Positions 1 through 32,997 of a stretch of DNA of 64,000 bases are shown here, one piece after another; position 1 is the stretch's first letter; every line of letters starts with the position of its first letter. Both the position numbers and the translations under genes were made by a program. The DNA comes from a virus. Where the stretch lies: IMG/VR virus record IMGVR_UViG_3300047553_000177, positions 1 through 64,000 of that record; one strand, written 5' to 3'. The notes beneath the pieces were generated by a model. It ran no database searches. It had not been told where the DNA came from and saw nothing but the letters and a program-made list of their open reading frames with translations.

Positions 1-3000
1 GTATATAAAGAGATGCTTAAGATAGTAGCAGGTAAGACTAGCTTTGAAGAAATTAAAGCAGAGTTAGCTAAAGCTGCAAAGTTAAAACCACATTTAAGAA
101 ATGTAATGAGGTTTGTAAATAAGCTTACAGGGCAAGAAGCTGCTTTATTTTATAGTGGATTTGCTCTTATCAATACAGAGTTTGTAATGCTAAGAAGCAG
201 AACTGTTGGAGAAGTATTACATGTAGATGTTATAAACCCTAACAGAAAAGATGCTATAACTAACACTGTAGATAAATGGAAGTTAAACTTAACTACTCGT
301 GAAGAAGAAAACCCACGAGCTTTATATAGAGAAGTTCCTAAACTAGATAGCAATAATAATCCGGTACTAGAAGAAGGGGAACAAGTTTATCACTTAGTTC
401 CTATAAAAGAGAAGCTAGTTAAAGCTCAGCAGTTGATGAGAAACCTAGAGAATCTTGTACTAAAAAGCAGAAGTAAAGAAGCTATTCCAGTAGCTACAGA
501 AGATGGGTCTATAAGTGAAATAACTGCATCTATAGCAGAACTTATGTGGCTACTAGGCATGAATATAGGAGATAGTGTAAATATCTCAGATACTCAACTA
601 GCAATACAAAATATAATTAACAATGGTACTACTATATTAGATCCATCAAATAAGTATGTAGAATTAAAAGGAGGGCAATTAGCTAACTCACTTGTTTATA
701 ACTTATCTAGACTTTTAAAGCTTGTAGGAAACTTTGGGCAAAAGGATGGAAGTGCATTTGGATTCTTAGATGTTGTAACCCCTAAGCCAGATTATATAAG
801 TCTTAATAGAAATCTTACAACTTCAATTGCTGAGTTATTTGGCCCACTCCTATCATCAGTAGGAGAATCTTATGTGTCTGCTAATGGACAGTCTACCTAT
901 CCAATCAACTTGGCTACTCACATGTCTGACATAGTAAATGTTTTAAAAAACGGTGGTGAAGCAGGTAATGCAGCTCTAACTGAATACTTACAAGATCCAT
1001 TTATAAATGGTGGTAGCAATGAGCATATGAGTATTTTATTCAAATACTTAAAACAATCTCCAGAGTTCAGAAGACAATTTAACACACAAGATTTTGATGC
1101 TGCTAAAGGATTATCGGAATTTGAAGAAGCTTTAATGTACGAAGACTTTTCAAAGTCAGATGTTTTAGTTACTACAATCAATGCATTTATTAATGGTAAC
1201 TCAAATAGTCCTACTTGTTTAATAGCTATACCAACACAGTCAGACCGTAACAAGTATACATTTATAGTTGTACCAAGAGTTTTATCAGGGGCATTTGGAA
1301 TTAAATCTACTGAAAGTACTCTTATTAAATCTCAGATAATACAAGACTTACTTAGAATTGCTAAAGCTAAAAAAGTCGTAGAGGATGCTCAAATAAGTGG
1401 AGACTACAGTAATCTTATAGAAGGAGTACATACTGCTCCAGGTAATAGCTCAGCAATTATAGATAAGACTTCTAAAAAATATTATGGTACTGCATTCAGT
1501 GATAAGTCTTTACAGTTTACTGCTACTAATGATGCAGGATTACAAATTGTAACTGATGCAGTAATTGGTAAAGATACTTTAAATCCTAATGGGGTAGTTC
1601 AGTTAAGTGATCAAATAGAGAAGTATGTAAAAGGAGAGTTGAATGCTGCTGAAAAATCTTTAATAGACAGTAAGATTAACAATATGGTTAATGAGATGTC
1701 TATATATATTGGTAAACAAGCAGATGCTATCTACAATACATTAAAGAAAGATGGGAAGCTAGGAGAGATTGGAGTAGGAAATATAAGTGCTAGCTCAGAT
1801 CCAGAAGCTGGTAAGAATATTTACAGAGGGTTTGTTGTTACAAACATGATAATGAGAAATGAAATAGTAAAACTATTCCGTGGAAGTAGAGCTAACAATA
1901 AAAACTTAGAAGATTTCTATAAACGTATGGGTCACTTAACTACTCCTGGTGTTAAGATGGCTATGAAGGGAGAAGTTGGATCAGAAAGTTGGTTAAATGG
2001 TGAAGAGTACGGTATGATGCCTAACTTTACTGAAACAACTTTCTACGACCCTAAATTAAATATTACACCAGCTTTAGAAGAGCAGGCACATATGACTGCT
2101 AATAATATAGCTAATGGTCTTGTTAGAAATGTACTTAGAAATGCTGGATTAAATACTAATGTAGCAATAGAGTACTCTAGCAGTGAACAAGTTGTAAGAG
2201 TAGATAATGGGGTTACAATTCTTAACAGCCGTCTAGCAGACAGTGAGGAGATGGGTGTAGCTTTAGAGAGGTTATTCCCACAAGTTAAAGATCTTGTTGC
2301 TAAATCTGTAAGTATAGGAAATGAATATCGTCCTGGTAGATTCGACGGTAATGATGGTCAGGCCTACATTAGTTTAGATATGCATAGATCTATTCAACAA
2401 GGATTAGGTCAATGGGAGCAGGAAGATGAAGAAGCTTATAAAGCTTATCAAACTACTGGAGAATTTGTATATCAAGAAGGGTTTGTTCCTAAAGATTTTA
2501 AAGTTGGAGATGCAGTCCCAATCAAACCATACAAACCTTACTTTGAAGATTTATTCTATAATCAAGCAACTGGTGCAATGAATGTAGTTTCAGAAAAGAA
2601 TCACTACTCAGTTGTAATTAGAAGCTATGCTAAGAATCACCCACAACTTTCGGACCTTCTAGATAGAATGGAAGGTAGAGGAGCTTATGCAGGTATGGAT
2701 AAAATACATGTAGTGAACTTTGGATCAGGTAAAAAGATGGGTAAAAGAGGTATGCATAAAATAACTGGACAACCTGGAGAGTATGCAAACATCTCATATA
2801 ACTCAAATAGATCTTCAAAGTTAAGATTCCCTCAGACTATACCTTCTATGAAGTCTAGTCAAACTGTTACATTCAACAGACAGATTAAGAAGAACATGAT
2901 ATCTAATGTTAAAGATATTACTACCTATACTTATAATGCAGGTCTTGCATCAGAGTTTAATATAGATGGTAGGAATATGAAGATTACTTATCACAGAGCA

Positions 3001-5910
3001 ATTGAAGAAAAACTGAAGAGAGATTTAGAAGCTGCTGAAAAAGAATTGTCTATAGATAAATTAAGAGAAGCAGCTGTTCTTAGAGAAGATAACCCACAGA
3101 ACTATAATAAACTTAAACTTGAAATACTTAAGAATGTAAGAGAAATCTTGATGGCTCAAATTCAAGACGGTAATCTTACATCAAACTATAGTAATGCTTT
3201 AGATATAGTATTTACTCCAACTGGTGAACCTAGATTCTCTATTCCTATAGACCTACCTATATTTAATAAAAAGTATGAGTCAATACTTTTATCTATATTC
3301 AACAATCAAGTATTTAAGCAAAAGCTTAAAGGGTTTGAAGCAGTACAGGTAGCAGAGTTAGGTGGTCACTCTACCGACAATGCATTAAACTTCTTGCAGA
3401 TTTCTGAAGATGGTAGAAGAGTAATTCATGCAGATGTAATGATCCGTGAGGATGTAGCTCGTAGATTTGGAATAGAACCTGGGCAATCCTTAGATGCTGT
3501 ACCAGAAGAACTAAGACGTATCATTGGCTATCGTATCCCGAATGCTGATAAAGGAGCTACAGTTATTTTAAAGATTGCTAAAGTTCTCCCAAACAATTAT
3601 GAAAAAGCTGTAGTCATACCTGGTCAGTTAATCAAGTTGATGGGATCTGACTTTGACGTCGATAAATTAAATCTTCTATTCCCAGAAGTAGAAGAAGATC
3701 TTAATAGTCCATTTGGGGTTAGAAAAGTAAATGTAGATTATGCAGCCATAATGCAGAATCCTGACATCATGAGTGATCCAAATATTGTATCAAATAAAAT
3801 GTTGAACAATATAATTACAGATACAATAGAAGCTGTATATGCAAATCCTGCTCACTTATTTGAGGTATTCACTCCACTTGATGATGTAACATTATCAGAT
3901 GAAGCTGAACGTATAGCAAAAGCTATTCCTGAATTAGCAGCAGCTTCTGACTGGAATTCTTGGGAGACAGAGGCAGATACAATTGTTAAGAATATTCGTG
4001 GTAATAAATTACGTGGTATATATGCAAACATAATTGCAGGACGTAACGTTGCTATGCACGGTGTTATACATGTAAATAAAGATTATGCTATTAAGATACA
4101 AGAAGATGATGGAAATGTTACAGAGTATATAGAATACTTAAGTGAATTTGATGGAGTAACAACAGATAAAACTGGAGCTCTATTCCTGTCAGCTGCTGTA
4201 GATGCATCTAAAACTCCTGTACAAAAAGAGCTTAATGACTCTGTACTAACATCTAGAATACGTGCAATGTTTCTAGCATTCTATCCAGAATACAATAGCA
4301 GTACTTGTACAAACTTTTTAAACCAACCTATAATCAGAGAGCTTACTACTTTATTTGAAACTAAGTATAGTGGTAACTTAATGAAATTTAATAAAGCTTA
4401 TAAAGCTATCTTTAAATCGTATAAAGCAGAAACCTTACTTCCAGCTGAAGATCCAAACTATACTATTCCGATGAAGAGATCTGAAATAAATAATCTTTCT
4501 TCAGAGAATAGAGATAAAGCTCAACAGGCTATTATGCTTCATAATTTCAATATGCTTTATAATGCAGGAAGATCTCTACTTTCACTATATAAAAGAATTA
4601 CACCAGACTCTATGGATGGTATGAATCGTATAGGTGGAATACAATCTTACAATGATAAAGCTGCTGAATATGATGTAACCTTAGAGGATGATAATGTACC
4701 TATAAATAATACTACTATATTCTTTGGAGCAGATAAAACTGTGAACGTAGTTGATCAGTTTATTGGTGAAAATTCTATATATGGTTTAGAACGTGGATAC
4801 GAAAACCTTAAAAACTCTATCATGGAGAACTCTGGTATATTCTTCCCGTCTCGTACATCACCAGCATTTATGGCATTCAAAGAAAAATTGAAACTAAATA
4901 CTAGTAAAAATCAGTTTACAGCTGAGATGCATCAACTTATAGACTATAACTTAATGTTTATGATGTTGATGAAACCAGAATCACCTTTCTTCAGAAATGT
5001 TAGCTATACAGAATTGTATAAAGATCCAAAAAATAATATCTATACAAGACTAGTAGAATTAAAGAAGAAGTACCTAGGTTTAGGTGCAGCTAAGTTCTTA
5101 TCTGGATTTGAATCAGACTTCTTACCAGAGAGTAATTACTACGGACTTAAGTTAGATACTTCTACTGCAGGAGAAAGAAGTGAGAAAGAGCAATTTATAA
5201 ATGGATTACGAGCCATGCTGTTTAATCCTATAGTATTTATATCTGCCCCTAATAGTGAAAAAGTTGTTGGACCAGATGGAAAATACAGCCCAGAGATGGA
5301 AGGGAAGATTAAGGAGATAAAGAAATTAGGTAGAGATTTATTAATGCATACATTCTTAACTAATGGATTTAGACAAAGTTCTGATTCATACTCAGACATG
5401 TTACCTGAAGATTTCTTTACCACTCCTATGGATGTAGATGGTAAGAAGGTAAGTATTGCAGATTTCTTCTATGCTGAAAGAGAGAAGTTAAATGATGCTA
5501 CATACTTTAGTGGGGATGACTTAGTTAACTATATGACTATGTTTGGAAAGATGAGAGCTGGAGGAGCCGGACTACTAAATTCTGCCAGCAGTTCTAGTTT
5601 AAATCAGAATTTACCACCATTAGCTTTTAGTGATCACCACGAAAAGTATATAGTTGTTAAAAACAAAGCTACAAAAGCTACGGCTGTTTATCAGAAGACT
5701 GTATTCTCAGAAGGTAAATCTCACTATGTTGGATTAAAAGGTTCATATGCTGCTAAAGGTGCTCACAAATTATACGGTTCAGGTATTGCATGGGTATTAA
5801 AAAACCCTAACAATGTCAATATAGAGACATCAGCAATATATACCCCAGACATGGATAAATCTAGAGCATCAAACCTAGATGAAACTGGAACTGTAAGTTG
5901 TTCACTATAA
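1..5910 (+). CDS. Giant crAss-like phage RNA polymerase protein, 3' part (5' cut by window edge)
   Basis: The reading frame is open from base 1 with no stop before the ATG at 13, so the gene probably begins outside the window. From that ATG it runs 1965 residues. The key feature is SDFDVDKLNLLF, with D1213, D1215 and D1217 (counted from the ATG at 13). This DxDxD triad is the metal-binding signature of the single-chain two-barrel RNA polymerases known from crAss-like phages such as phi14:2. By analogy, the protein is packaged in the virion, enters the cell with the DNA and transcribes early genes. The next giant gene follows after 16 bases. The N-terminal barrel is not identifiable here. I am confident of the family and less so of the domain limits. 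Confidence 0.8.
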   Translation, partial: VYKEMLKIVAGKTSFEEIKAELAKAAKLKPHLRNVMRFVNKLTGQEAALFYSGFALINTEFVMLRSRTVGEVLHVDVINPNRKDAITNTVDKWKLNLTTREEENPRALYREVPKLDSNNNPVLEEGEQVYHLVPIKEKLVKAQQLMRNLENLVLKSRSKEAIPVATEDGSISEITASIAELMWLLGMNIGDSVNISDTQLAIQNIINNGTTILDPSNKYVELKGGQLANSLVYNLSRLLKLVGNFGQKDGSAFGFLDVVTPKPDYISLNRNLTTSIAELFGPLLSSVGESYVSANGQSTYPINLATHMSDIVNVLKNGGEAGNAALTEYLQDPFINGGSNEHMSILFKYLKQSPEFRRQFNTQDFDAAKGLSEFEEALMYEDFSKSDVLVTTINAFINGNSNSPTCLIAIPTQSDRNKYTFIVVPRVLSGAFGIKSTESTLIKSQIIQDLLRIAKAKKVVEDAQISGDYSNLIEGVHTAPGNSSAIIDKTSKKYYGTAFSDKSLQFTATNDAGLQIVTDAVIGKDTLNPNGVVQLSDQIEKYVKGELNAAEKSLIDSKINNMVNEMSIYIGKQADAIYNTLKKDGKLGEIGVGNISASSDPEAGKNIYRGFVVTNMIMRNEIVKLFRGSRANNKNLEDFYKRMGHLTTPGVKMAMKGEVGSESWLNGEEYGMMPNFTETTFYDPKLNITPALEEQAHMTANNIANGLVRNVLRNAGLNTNVAIEYSSSEQVVRVDNGVTILNSRLADSEEMGVALERLFPQVKDLVAKSVSIGNEYRPGRFDGNDGQAYISLDMHRSIQQGLGQWEQEDEEAYKAYQTTGEFVYQEGFVPKDFKVGDAVPIKPYKPYFEDLFYNQATGAMNVVSEKNHYSVVIRSYAKNHPQLSDLLDRMEGRGAYAGMDKIHVVNFGSGKKMGKRGMHKITGQPGEYANISYNSNRSSKLRFPQTIPSMKSSQTVTFNRQIKKNMISNVKDITTYTYNAGLASEFNIDGRNMKITYHRAIEEKLKRDLEAAEKELSIDKLREAAVLREDNPQNYNKLKLEILKNVREILMAQIQDGNLTSNYSNALDIVFTPTGEPRFSIPIDLPIFNKKYESILLSIFNNQVFKQKLKGFEAVQVAELGGHSTDNALNFLQISEDGRRVIHADVMIREDVARRFGIEPGQSLDAVPEELRRIIGYRIPNADKGATVILKIAKVLPNNYEKAVVIPGQLIKLMGSDFDVDKLNLLFPEVEEDLNSPFGVRKVNVDYAAIMQNPDIMSDPNIVSNKMLNNIITDTIEAVYANPAHLFEVFTPLDDVTLSDEAERIAKAIPELAAASDWNSWETEADTIVKNIRGNKLRGIYANIIAGRNVAMHGVIHVNKDYAIKIQEDDGNVTEYIEYLSEFDGVTTDKTGALFLSAAVDASKTPVQKELNDSVLTSRIRAMFLAFYPEYNSSTCTNFLNQPIIRELTTLFETKYSGNLMKFNKAYKAIFKSYKAETLLPAEDPNYTIPMKRSEINNLSSENRDKAQQAIMLHNFNMLYNAGRSLLSLYKRITPDSMDGMNRIGGIQSYNDKAAEYDVTLEDDNVPINNTTIFFGADKTVNVVDQFIGENSIYGLERGYENLKNSIMENSGIFFPSRTSPAFMAFKEKLKLNTSKNQFTAEMHQLIDYNLMFMMLMKPESPFFRNVSYTELYKDPKNNIYTRLVELKKKYLGLGAAKFLSGFESDFLPESNYYGLKLDTSTAGERSEKEQFINGLRAMLFNPIVFISAPNSEKVVGPDGKYSPEMEGKIKEIKKLGRDLLMHTFLTNGFRQSSDSYSDMLPEDFFTTPMDVDGKKVSIADFFYAEREKLNDATYFSGDDLVNYMTMFGKMRAGGAGLLNSASSSSLNQNLPPLAFSDHHEKYIVVKNKATKATAVYQKTVFSEGKSHYVGLKGSYAAKGAHKLYGSGIAWVLKNPNNVNIETSAIYTPDMDKSRASNLDETGTVSCSL

Positions 5911-30702: not shown

Positions 30703-31287
30703 CTAGTTATTGATTTCTCCTGTTATTACAGACGTAGCTGTAACTGCTTTAGAGCCATCCATTGGCAAGAACACATGAGCTGCTTTATCTAAGCAAATCG
30801 TAGTGTTAGCAAAGATGTGTTTGCCATTGTGATAGCAATACTCACCGTCTTTACCTTTACGTTTAGCACTTGTTTCCAAGTTAGCTAATTGATACTCAGT
30901 ACCTTCGGTGGTCTCAAGAACCTGTACTTTAATGTTTCGTGGAGTACCACTGATATTAGCTACAGGATTTAAAACATTAAGTTGTAATGTTTCTCTTCCG
31001 TAACTGTCAGTAACCCAGTCAGCATTATCTGACATGTCAATGCCAAATACATTGTAGACATCAGCAACAGCTGCTGTCATCCATGCTCGTCTTGCTCCAC
31101 CTTGTGAGAAACGTGGATCACTAGCATTTAATAGTGCCAATAGATTTACAGAATTAGATCCGTTTTCGAGAATCTCTGCAAATTCTAATTGAATTTTGTT
31201 ACCAGCAACTTTCCTAGCCGATACCATCAAGGTCTGTCCAACCTGCAATCCCTGCAAGCTTCCAGAATTTAGAGTGTTTTTACTCAT
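30703..31287 (-). CDS. Hypothetical early protein, possibly nucleic-acid binding
   Basis: The likely start is the ATG at 31287 (MSKNTLNSGSLQGLQVGQTL), 194 residues; a TTG-type start gives ten more. The N-terminal half is beta-rich, and the C-terminal half has a basic segment (SAKRKGKDGEYCYHNGKHIF). It has its own terminator and stands alone behind the large structured RNA region, so it is probably strongly expressed early. An SSB-like or DNA-coating role is conceivable, but I see no diagnostic motif. Confidence 0.6.
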   Translation of the reverse strand: MSKNTLNSGSLQGLQVGQTLMVSARKVAGNKIQLEFAEILENGSNSVNLLALLNASDPRFSQGGARRAWMTAAVADVYNVFGIDMSDNADWVTDSYGRETLQLNVLNPVANISGTPRNIKVQVLETTEGTEYQLANLETSAKRKGKDGEYCYHNGKHIFANTTICLDKAAHVFLPMDGSKAVTATSVITGEINN

Positions 31288-31325
31288 GATTTTTATATGT
31301 GATTTATGTAAATCCAAGATTAAAT

Positions 31326-31450
31326 AACATTGCAGCAGACAAACCCTTCATGATGGCCCATTGCCATTCTTTTTAGCTGTCTATTCTGTGCACAAATAAC
31401 TATCTCTACTATAACTTTTCTTGAGGATTCGAGATAGATGCTGCAATGTT
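31326..31450 (-). ncRNA. Structured RNA unit 1, closed by a 12-bp helix
   Basis: AACATTGCAGCA (31326-31337) pairs perfectly with TGCTGCAATGTT (31439-31450). Inside, CTATCTC (31400-31406) pairs with GAGATAG (31431-31437), and GGCCCATTGCC forms a small hairpin. There is no open reading frame of note. It is the member of the array nearest the start of the gene at 31287. Confidence 0.6.
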
Positions 31451-31589
31451 GTACCCCTCTGCACTCAGTTGTAATACTTCATAGCCTATAGACCACAAAT
31501 AAATTGTGTATGGAATAATTCTTACATACTTCATATTACAAACTGCTCACCCTTGGGAAGTGAGTTATGGTGCATTAGCAAAGCAGTTT
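31449..31589 (-). ncRNA. Structured RNA unit 2 (first tandem copy)
   Basis: On the plus strand the unit begins with TTGTACCCCTCTGCACTCAG. One arm pairs CAGTTGTAATA (31466-31476) with TATTACAAACTG (31534-31545) with one bulge. A hairpin pairs CTCAC (31546-31550) with GTGAG (31560-31564) around CCTTGGGAA. AAACTGCT (31540-31547) can also pair with AGCAGTTT (31582-31589), so alternative folds exist. The downstream copy keeps the same elements with different helix sequences. Confidence 0.65.
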
Positions 31590-31605
31590 ATACACTTGCT
31601 TAGGT

Positions 31606-31763
31606 GTTTGTACCACTCTGCATTCAGTGTAACACACTTGCCCTCCAACCGTCATAGTAATTTACTATTAGGGTAACAGTAATCTGCAAGCTCTATTCCT
31701 GTTCACGCTACCTGTGTTACACTGCCAACCCTTGTGAAGTTGGAATGATGCATTAATACAAAC
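31606..31763 (-). ncRNA. Structured RNA unit 3 (second tandem copy, covarying)
   Basis: GTTTGTA (31606-31612) pairs with TACAAAC (31757-31763) and closes the unit. CAGTGTAACACA (31625-31636) pairs perfectly with TGTGTTACACTG (31713-31724). A hairpin pairs CCAAC (31725-31729) with GTTGG (31739-31743) around CCTTGTGAA. Against unit 2, the opening 21 bases differ at two positions and the hairpin stem differs by two compensatory pair changes while the loop is kept, which is direct covariation evidence for an RNA fold. Confidence 0.7.
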
Positions 31764-31821
31764 CAACAACATCTCAGTCGAAAGACTTGTATCGACAAAT
31801 CAGACCTTGATGCTGTTGGTT
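31761..31821 (-). ncRNA. Structured RNA unit 4, long stem with inner hairpins
   Basis: AACCAACAACATC (31761-31773) pairs with GATGCTGTTGGTT (31809-31821). The single plus-strand A-C mismatch becomes a U-G wobble on the minus strand. Inside, AGTC GAAA GACT (31776-31787) forms a compact hairpin, and TGT/ACA a small second one. It is the unit closest to the promoter side of the early operon. Confidence 0.6.
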
Positions 31822-31826
31822 AATGA

Positions 31827-32228: not shown

Positions 32229-32300
32229 AAGATTGGTGCCGGGGGGTTTGATCCGGCAATAGTTAGTGGGGTCTTTGAATCTGTAGGATAACACTCTCAA

Positions 32301-32497
32301 AAAATTCCCATCAAAAAAAATTTTCCCCCAAAAAAATTCTATCTACTTTAAAGGTGGTTAATTCGAGACCTTTAGATGTTTGGTTGGTTAGTGCTACTAC
32401 CCATCTTGTTAATATCAACCTAATGATGTTTTTAGGTGTAGGTGAGTTAGTTGGTTCCTTACGAGGACAGTTTGTCCCTGGGTAGTAGAGTCACGTT
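32301..32497. other. Non-coding stretch with homopolymer runs
   Basis: I see no credible gene. It begins with A and C runs (AAAAAATTCCCATC, AAAAAAAATTTTCCCCC), suited to easy melting, and holds one small hairpin, GGACA GTT TGTCC at 32465-32477. It adjoins the repeat cluster proposed as origin. Confidence 0.5.
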
Positions 32498-32768: not shown

Positions 32769-32778
32769 TCGGAAGAGC

Positions 32779-32809
32779 TTGTAACATTTTTACCTTGTTT
32801 TTGTTACAA
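32779..32809 (+). promoter_or_regulatory. Inverted repeat TTGTAAC...GTTACAA
   Basis: TTGTAAC (32779-32785) and GTTACAA (32803-32809) are perfect inverted copies 17 bases apart, just upstream of the -7 box at 32836. It may be a second regulator site or part of the promoter architecture. Confidence 0.45.
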
Positions 32810-32835
32810 AAAGTATAAAGTTAAGATAGCTTGCT

Positions 32836-32843
32836 TATATTTG
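32836..32843 (+). promoter_or_regulatory. TATATTTG -7 box of the rightward small-gene cluster
   Basis: TATATTTG fits TAnnTTTG and is followed by TCAA and the ATG at 32848, as at 5915-5927 (TATATTTGCAAT then ATG). The -33 element is poor, so activation by a phage factor at the palindromes upstream is plausible. Confidence 0.5.
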
Positions 32844-32847
32844 TCAA

Positions 32848-32997
32848 ATGAGACAAGAGGAGTTTTTATTTTTAAGATCACAGGTTAGAGCATTTCACCC
32901 TGACTGGACTGACGAACAAGTTAATGAGGAGTGCAACAAAATCTTATCTGGGGAGTATAATGAAAATGAAGACTCTTGTTTATATTGTGGAAGCTAA
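32848..32997 (+). CDS. 49-residue micro-protein
   Basis: The ATG at 32848 lies 4 bases after the -7 box. The product begins MRQEEFLFLRSQVRAFHPDW, has an acidic middle and ends CLYCGS with a CxxC pair. It is protein-like in composition and is the first rightward gene after the operator cluster, so it may be an early regulator. No family is recognised. Confidence 0.6.
   Translation: MRQEEFLFLRSQVRAFHPDWTDEQVNEECNKILSGEYNENEDSCLYCGS

Follow-up and report, generated by a model that had tools for sequence, protein, structure and literature searches.

A probable twister ribozyme variant in tandem copies between the early and late genes of a crAss-like phage

Two related structured RNAs, encoded in tandem on the minus strand of a crAss-like phage genome, are probably copies of a hitherto unrecognised twister variant, a self-cleaving ribozyme that would process the early transcript in which they reside. 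They are units 2 and 3 of a non-coding, structured array of about 500 bases where the early genes begin, and each forms a three-way junction of roughly 140-160 nt. Self-cleavage of both units is very probable, judged from their fold and from residues equivalent to the catalytic ones of twister. The stretch of DNA analysed, referred to as the window, comprises 64 kb of a virus record that is 68.7 kb long.

Twister, hatchet and pistol ribozymes were discovered by computation and, to our knowledge, their natural roles are largely unknown. A twister variant that is missed by the Rfam models, occupies a fixed genome position in well over a hundred contigs and is accompanied by other ribozyme classes in some of them therefore offers a concrete and testable case for what such ribozymes do. 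It would also add a post-transcriptional layer to gene control in crAss-like phages, and it puts many natural arm-bearing versions at the disposal of ribozyme engineering. No paper describing the variant was found in the literature searched, and many subscription papers lie outside that literature.

The array and its surroundings

The window contains genes for terminase, portal protein and DNA polymerase, and its capsid protein shares about 30% identity with capsid proteins of crAss-like phages. On one side of the array is a block of early genes on the minus strand, on the other a block of structural genes on the plus strand. The product of the first sizeable early-strand gene after the array (Table 1) has relatives in 13 contigs and no family match in PHROG or Pfam; it is possibly a single-stranded DNA-binding protein, a candidate assignment that is unproven.

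The initial annotation described four adjacent closed helices in a region without a sizeable gene, and this description holds. Perfect 12-bp inverted repeats close unit 1 (31326-31337/31439-31450) and form the long arm of unit 3 (31625-31636/31713-31724), the 13-bp closing helix of unit 4 is seen in the computed fold, and no open reading frame longer than about 56 amino acids is present in the array region. Units 1 and 4, however, are not copies of the repeat but structured elements in their own right. Units 2 and 3 are indeed homologous: both match a single covariance model, R1 (unit 2 with 98.6 bits, E 5e-23; unit 3 with 76.3 bits, E 5e-17), both being among the 57 units from which this model was built. 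The choice of the minus strand is also supported. Its fold surpasses dinucleotide shuffles with a z score of -4.17 (0/100), compared with -2.65 for the plus strand, and the minus strand is therefore the likely RNA strand.

Table 1. Features of the array and its immediate neighbourhood (window coordinates; units numbered as in the initial annotation)
Feature	Position	Strand	Remarks
First sizeable early-strand gene after the array	30703..31317	-	likely start ATG at 31287
Unit 1	31326..31450	-	closed by perfect 12-bp helix (inverted repeat); between second ribozyme and next gene
Unit 2, downstream twister-like ribozyme	31445..31582	-	R1 match; P5 arm recurs in L030
Unit 2, predicted cleavage site	between U31577 and A31576	-	
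Unit 2, P1	31578-31582 with 31450-31454	-	weak, 3 pairs beside L1
Unit 2, P2	31570-31574 with 31460-31464	-	
Unit 2, P4	31560-31564 with 31546-31550	-	L4 31551-31559
Unit 2, T1	31555-31557 (CCC) with 31455-31457 (GGG)	-	
Unit 2, P5 arm	31466-31545	-	
Spacer between the ribozymes	31583..31603	-	holds most of a recurrent element (~31579-31606)
Unit 3, upstream twister-like ribozyme	31604..31760	-	R1 match, covariation, P1 test
Unit 3, predicted cleavage site	between U31755 and A31754	-	
Unit 3, P1	31756-31760 with 31609-31613	-	
Unit 3, P2	31748-31752 with 31619-31623	-	
Unit 3, P4	31739-31743 with 31725-31729	-	L4 31730-31738
Unit 3, T1	31734-31736 (CAC) with 31614-31616 (GUG)	-	
Unit 3, P5 arm	31625-31724	-	
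Unit 4, 12-13 bp hairpin	31756..31825	-	directly upstream of first ribozyme
Small hydrophobic ORF, 32 aa	31827..31925	-	3' end just upstream of unit 4; read from sequence

Origins, too, are typically marked by long inverted repeats where divergent gene blocks meet, and the array could in principle act at the DNA level as origin, packaging or recombination hairpins. We consider this very improbable, given the better folding of the minus strand, a pseudoknot and covariation including wobble pairs that fit RNA, and the fixed orientation of the elements to the early genes together with co-occurring known ribozymes.

A relationship to GOLLD and ROOL, proposed in the initial annotation, is almost certainly to be dismissed, while its description as a tandem covarying RNA that separates the early from the late module in a crAss-like phage stands. 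Like these RNAs, the array is a large intergenic region of non-coding structured phage RNA, but it is made up of small repeated units with a ribozyme-like fold and a catalytic-type core. Nothing in Rfam 15 reaches the gathering threshold over the window, and between 31000 and 32900 the Rfam matches at E <= 5 are sub-threshold and outside the array only. The tRNA genes expected in the neighbourhood of such RNAs are absent from the window, and a tRNA occurs within 1 kb in 4 of 99 loci only. At one of these (L005, 4010-4230, in record G004) the unit directly abuts the 5' end of a tRNA-Gln gene and would accordingly be the leader of the tRNA. A sub-threshold match to the Rfam 'pan' motif (32770-32860, plus strand; 30.3 bits with a cut-off of 36.2, E 0.002-0.009) is AU-rich and sits in the leader of the plus-strand operon; it may be due to chance.

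The remaining parts of the array recur as well. Unit 1 is found again in two contigs (90% identity in L024, 74% in L038), with three compensated pairs across three sequences. Unit 4, whose 3' end runs into the P1 strand of the first ribozyme, lies beside ribozymes in seven IMG/VR contigs (blastn identity 89-94% in L002, L024, L053 and L091), and 2 of its 23 pairs are compensated among five sequences; L002 furthermore has an ORF similar to the small hydrophobic one. The recurrent spacer element, CCTAAGCAWG(5-8 nt)AAACTGCTT, has relatives at about 20 places (L006, L057, L070, L093, L183 and others), frequently a short way upstream of a ribozyme unit. Its stem of 3-5 bp covaries (CAC/GUG, GAC/GUC, GUC/GAC, AUC/GAU, UUC/GAA), AAGCA and UGCUU within it are complementary, and an H-type pseudoknot is possible. 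An in-frame reading of the element as PK[HQ]xxKLL is also possible, and its AUAAACUGCUU portion resembles part of the pistol core.

Unit architecture and covariation

Along the minus strand, each unit starts with one strand of P1, followed by U^AA (^ marks the predicted cut), P2 (UGCAY), CA, two to three bases and the P4 hairpin with the loop UUnnCAAGG. The long P5 arm comes next and then an A, the second strand of P2 (RUGCA), GA, the T1 strand and the second strand of P1. T1 is formed by the loop bases nnC and the base triplet that follows GA. The initial annotation had recognised the helices correctly but overlooked this pseudoknot between hairpin loop and 3' tail as well as the outer helix P1.

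The P4 stem exists in more than 20 sequence versions, one of which is provided by the compensatory change CTCAC/GTGAG versus CCAAC/GTTGG noticed at the outset between units 2 and 3. Alternatives to the common P2 are UGUAC/GUACA, UGCGU/ACGCA and CACAC/GUGUG, and T1 occurs as CCC/GGG, CAC/GUG, GCC/GGC, UCC/GGA and CUC/GAG, with CCA/UGG in units found by the model alone. P1 is 4-5 bp deep and flanks UAA and GAnnn exactly; its mean run is 3.26 compared with 1.41 +/- 0.11 after shuffling. In alignment A1 (57 units), 93.0% of the pairs are standard, 21 of 27 pairs show two-sided changes (shuffled, 13.5 +/- 1.4) and the covariation score is 0.389 (shuffled, 0.143 +/- 0.008). The corresponding values for alignment A2, consisting of 112 model matches, are 92.7% standard pairs (shuffled, 79.6 +/- 0.5), compensatory changes at 19 of 22 pairs and a score of 0.385 (shuffled, 0.148 +/- 0.007; slid controls, 0.05-0.08). 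The covariation anticipated from the two copies in the window is thus borne out by 57 and 112 units, far above shuffles and slid controls.

A2 was fitted to the nested structure and T1 lies outside the model that made the alignment. T1 pairing is therefore an independent test of the fold: it is paired in 98.8% and all three of its pairs covary. The A at the predicted cleavage site is kept in 111 of 112 units and the G after the second P2 strand, the general-base G, in 107 of 109, although invariance in the motif columns is built in to some extent, the 5' motif having been fixed in part by the pattern search and the A1 units selected with the help of the 3' motif; 15 units found by the model alone confirm the main residues. 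The Y of L2 covaries with the base closing P2 and not with L4. Among the units that look broken are the one at L082 13924, without P4/L4, and that of L180, with a mismatch in T1.

Relationship to twister ribozymes

In twister ribozymes stems P1, P2 and P4 are essential, P3 and P5 are optional and the fold contains two pseudoknots, T1 and T2 (PMC5408937). As in twister type P1 (RF03160), the units have the stem order P1-L1-P2-L2-P4-L4, each essential stem being backed by compensatory changes, and P5 is present as an optional arm. They also share the length of P1, U^AA and GA in L1, U-nnn-AAG in L4, and the position and length of T1, which connects L4 with L1 by three Watson-Crick pairs. The conserved A of the U^A site and the conserved G in L1 correspond to A6 and G48, the cleavage-site A and the active-site G of the env22 twister (PMC5408937).

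The units differ from RF03160 in the canonical T2 pseudoknot, formed by GC in L2 with GC in L4, which is absent: L2 has YC, with the Y paired in P2, and L4 has GG. The extra invariant G-C pair on P4 is absent too, the units having U...G at its position. Since these bases in L2, L4 and P4 are replaced, T2 would be altered or reduced, which suggests that twister can change this contact. Neither short- nor long-arm units match the Rfam twister models at E <= 10. Because T2 and the P4 G-C pair are missing and the Rfam models are silent, the units are regarded as a twister variant and not filed as canonical; the 'new class' considered in the initial annotation is better described as a new variant of the twister class.

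A canonical twister that lies in a carrier of the variant makes the kinship tangible. Record G004 (locus L005) gives an Rfam twister-P1 match of 49.8 bits (E 8e-11, below the cut-off of 67.2). This ribozyme, UAA-UGCA-GC...GGUCACAAGC...UGCA-GAGUGG, has L1, P2, L4 and T1 in common with the units, both being built from the same UAAUGCA, UnnnAAG and UGCAGAnnn parts. Model R1 finds one canonical twister weakly, with 22.7 bits.

That the units have kept a twister-like fold without cutting, and serve as stable structured leaders or as binding sites for phage or host proteins, is quite unlikely. Such a role would agree with the changed T2 and with P5 arms that make up the bulk of each unit and are exchanged as modules, and cleavage activity is deduced from sequence. 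The residues of twister chemistry are kept, however, as are L1 and T1. In some carriers, genuine twister, hatchet and pistol-like ribozymes are found at this position and on this strand, which points to cutting as the common property.

Theta ribozymes (PMC10879173) likewise cleave themselves, occur in Caudoviricetes and have been linked to the expression of phage genes. They have an HDV fold, stem from gut phages and are proposed to process tRNA 3' trailers, whereas the twister variant is found in environmental contigs, mostly without a nearby tRNA.

Distribution and co-located ribozymes

Three of the 13 contigs with relatives of the downstream gene product (L002, L005, L006) contain short DNA blocks matching units 2 and 3, and a degenerate pattern made from these blocks was run on IMG/VR. 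It returned at least 120 stretches, with the expected 3' motif within 400 bases in 111 of 123 matches. A sub-pattern scan yielded 25 contigs, of which the first 120 already included 16; from this overlap we estimate about 190 IMG/VR carrier contigs in all. In GTDB genomes the pattern matched 23 times, never with the 3' motif within 400 bases; a real 5' core is present in one case, a lake MAG contig (L149), and the other 22 look like chance. Blastn of the whole region and of the unit core against INPHARED phages gave chance-level matches only, and no cultured phage with the element came to light. Carriers usually have one to three units and, where testable, are crAss-like phages, apparently of a single phage order.

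A portal protein of the same family is encoded in 31 of the 50 records examined, 30 of them having been brought in as carriers of the element, and the portal-bearing records include nearly all long ones. Ribozyme and portal gene lie on opposite strands in all 28 records in which the two could be placed. The nearest downstream ORF is collinear in 85 of 94 loci, often less than 100 bases away.

Other self-cleaving RNAs share this position. Canonical twisters are found on the same strand in G004, G028 and G045 and, by descriptor, in L104, L110 and L111, all within about 2 kb of a unit except that of L111, at about 3 kb. Hatchet (RF02678) exceeds the threshold in G009/G044, G010 and G017, on the same strand and about 0.9-1.1 kb upstream; loci with hatchets above threshold, in crAss-like phage contigs and about 1 kb upstream of the twister variant, include L018 6387-6553, L171, L172 and L173 (1501 onward). 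Sub-threshold matches to pistol (RF02679) lie upstream on the same strand in G020 and G048, whereas the window has neither pistol nor hatchet. In these phages both classes lie within about 2 kb of the twister variant, have folds unrelated to it and presumably do the same job. The argument that several unrelated self-cleaving classes at one place point to a shared function has been made for other loci (PMC10085705); here, their co-location suggests that this function is cutting.

Exchangeable arms and inserted domains

P5 arms reappear in other contigs alongside different flanks and cores; the arm of unit 2 is nearly identical in L030, whose flanks differ. On the evidence of their sequences, the arms are evidently swapped between phages as modules. 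In five contigs a domain of about 100-200 bases separates P4 from the T1 bases of L4 as an insertion, with the twister-like core retained (L033 8243-8577; L016 7249-7639; L107 and L182, both minus strand; and L180 from 2232, the unit with the mismatched T1). It has a conserved core, GUGGAYAURAAGACUUCU...AGAUGURAAACCAC, is without a match in Rfam and is a possible aptamer or accessory domain. A stretch at L033 8442 that had been taken for a decayed unit is the 3' half of a unit with such an insertion.

These modules raise the question of natural allosteric ribozymes, in which the P5 arm or the P4/L4 insert senses a ligand and switches cutting, a refinement of the twister variant reading that we regard as unlikely. 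Arms that vary independently of the core and recur across phages, some with compensatory changes, would be expected of sensors, as would the five inserted domains with their conserved core. The average advantage of arm interiors over shuffles in folding is slight, however (mean z -0.98), a motif search across the arms found mild enrichments only, most arms having no common motif, and two units (L027, L085) are almost armless.

Proposed function

Units 2 and 3 likely act in transcript processing and 5'-end definition, a role deduced from their sequence and placement. Each unit would fold into P1-L1-P2-L2-P4-L4, with T1 locking L4 to L1, and would cleave itself at the U-A step of U^AA (Table 1), so that the upstream product would end in a 2',3'-cyclic phosphate and the downstream one start with a 5'-OH. 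These cuts would split the long early transcript into units that each start with an intact, tightly folded ribozyme and its P5 arm. A short RNA would be released between the two cuts, and the last unit would remain as leader of the mRNA for the downstream gene and give it a defined structured 5' end. The defined ends and the arms may serve stability, processing or switching. As a tentative extension, which is possible but far from assured, interchangeable ribozymes (the variant, canonical twister, hatchet, pistol) may divide a modular early leader of environmental crAss-like phages into units, with P5 and L4 parts as payloads or sensors, switchable in some way, that time or tune the early genes.

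RtcB, sought with a view to cutting followed by circularisation, is encoded in none of the 50 records. DUF2828/DUF7788 (TROVE/vWA-like) genes, possibly RNA-binding, lie downstream of the ribozyme in L111 and L047; a general link was rejected, as such genes are downstream in few loci only. L085, a contig with a crAss-like portal, has a tmRNA gene above threshold (2901-3224, minus strand, 86.2 bits). In the window, a conserved block with A/T and G runs at 32257-32338 (minus strand), common to several related contigs, lies upstream of the early small ORFs and may be the location of an early promoter.
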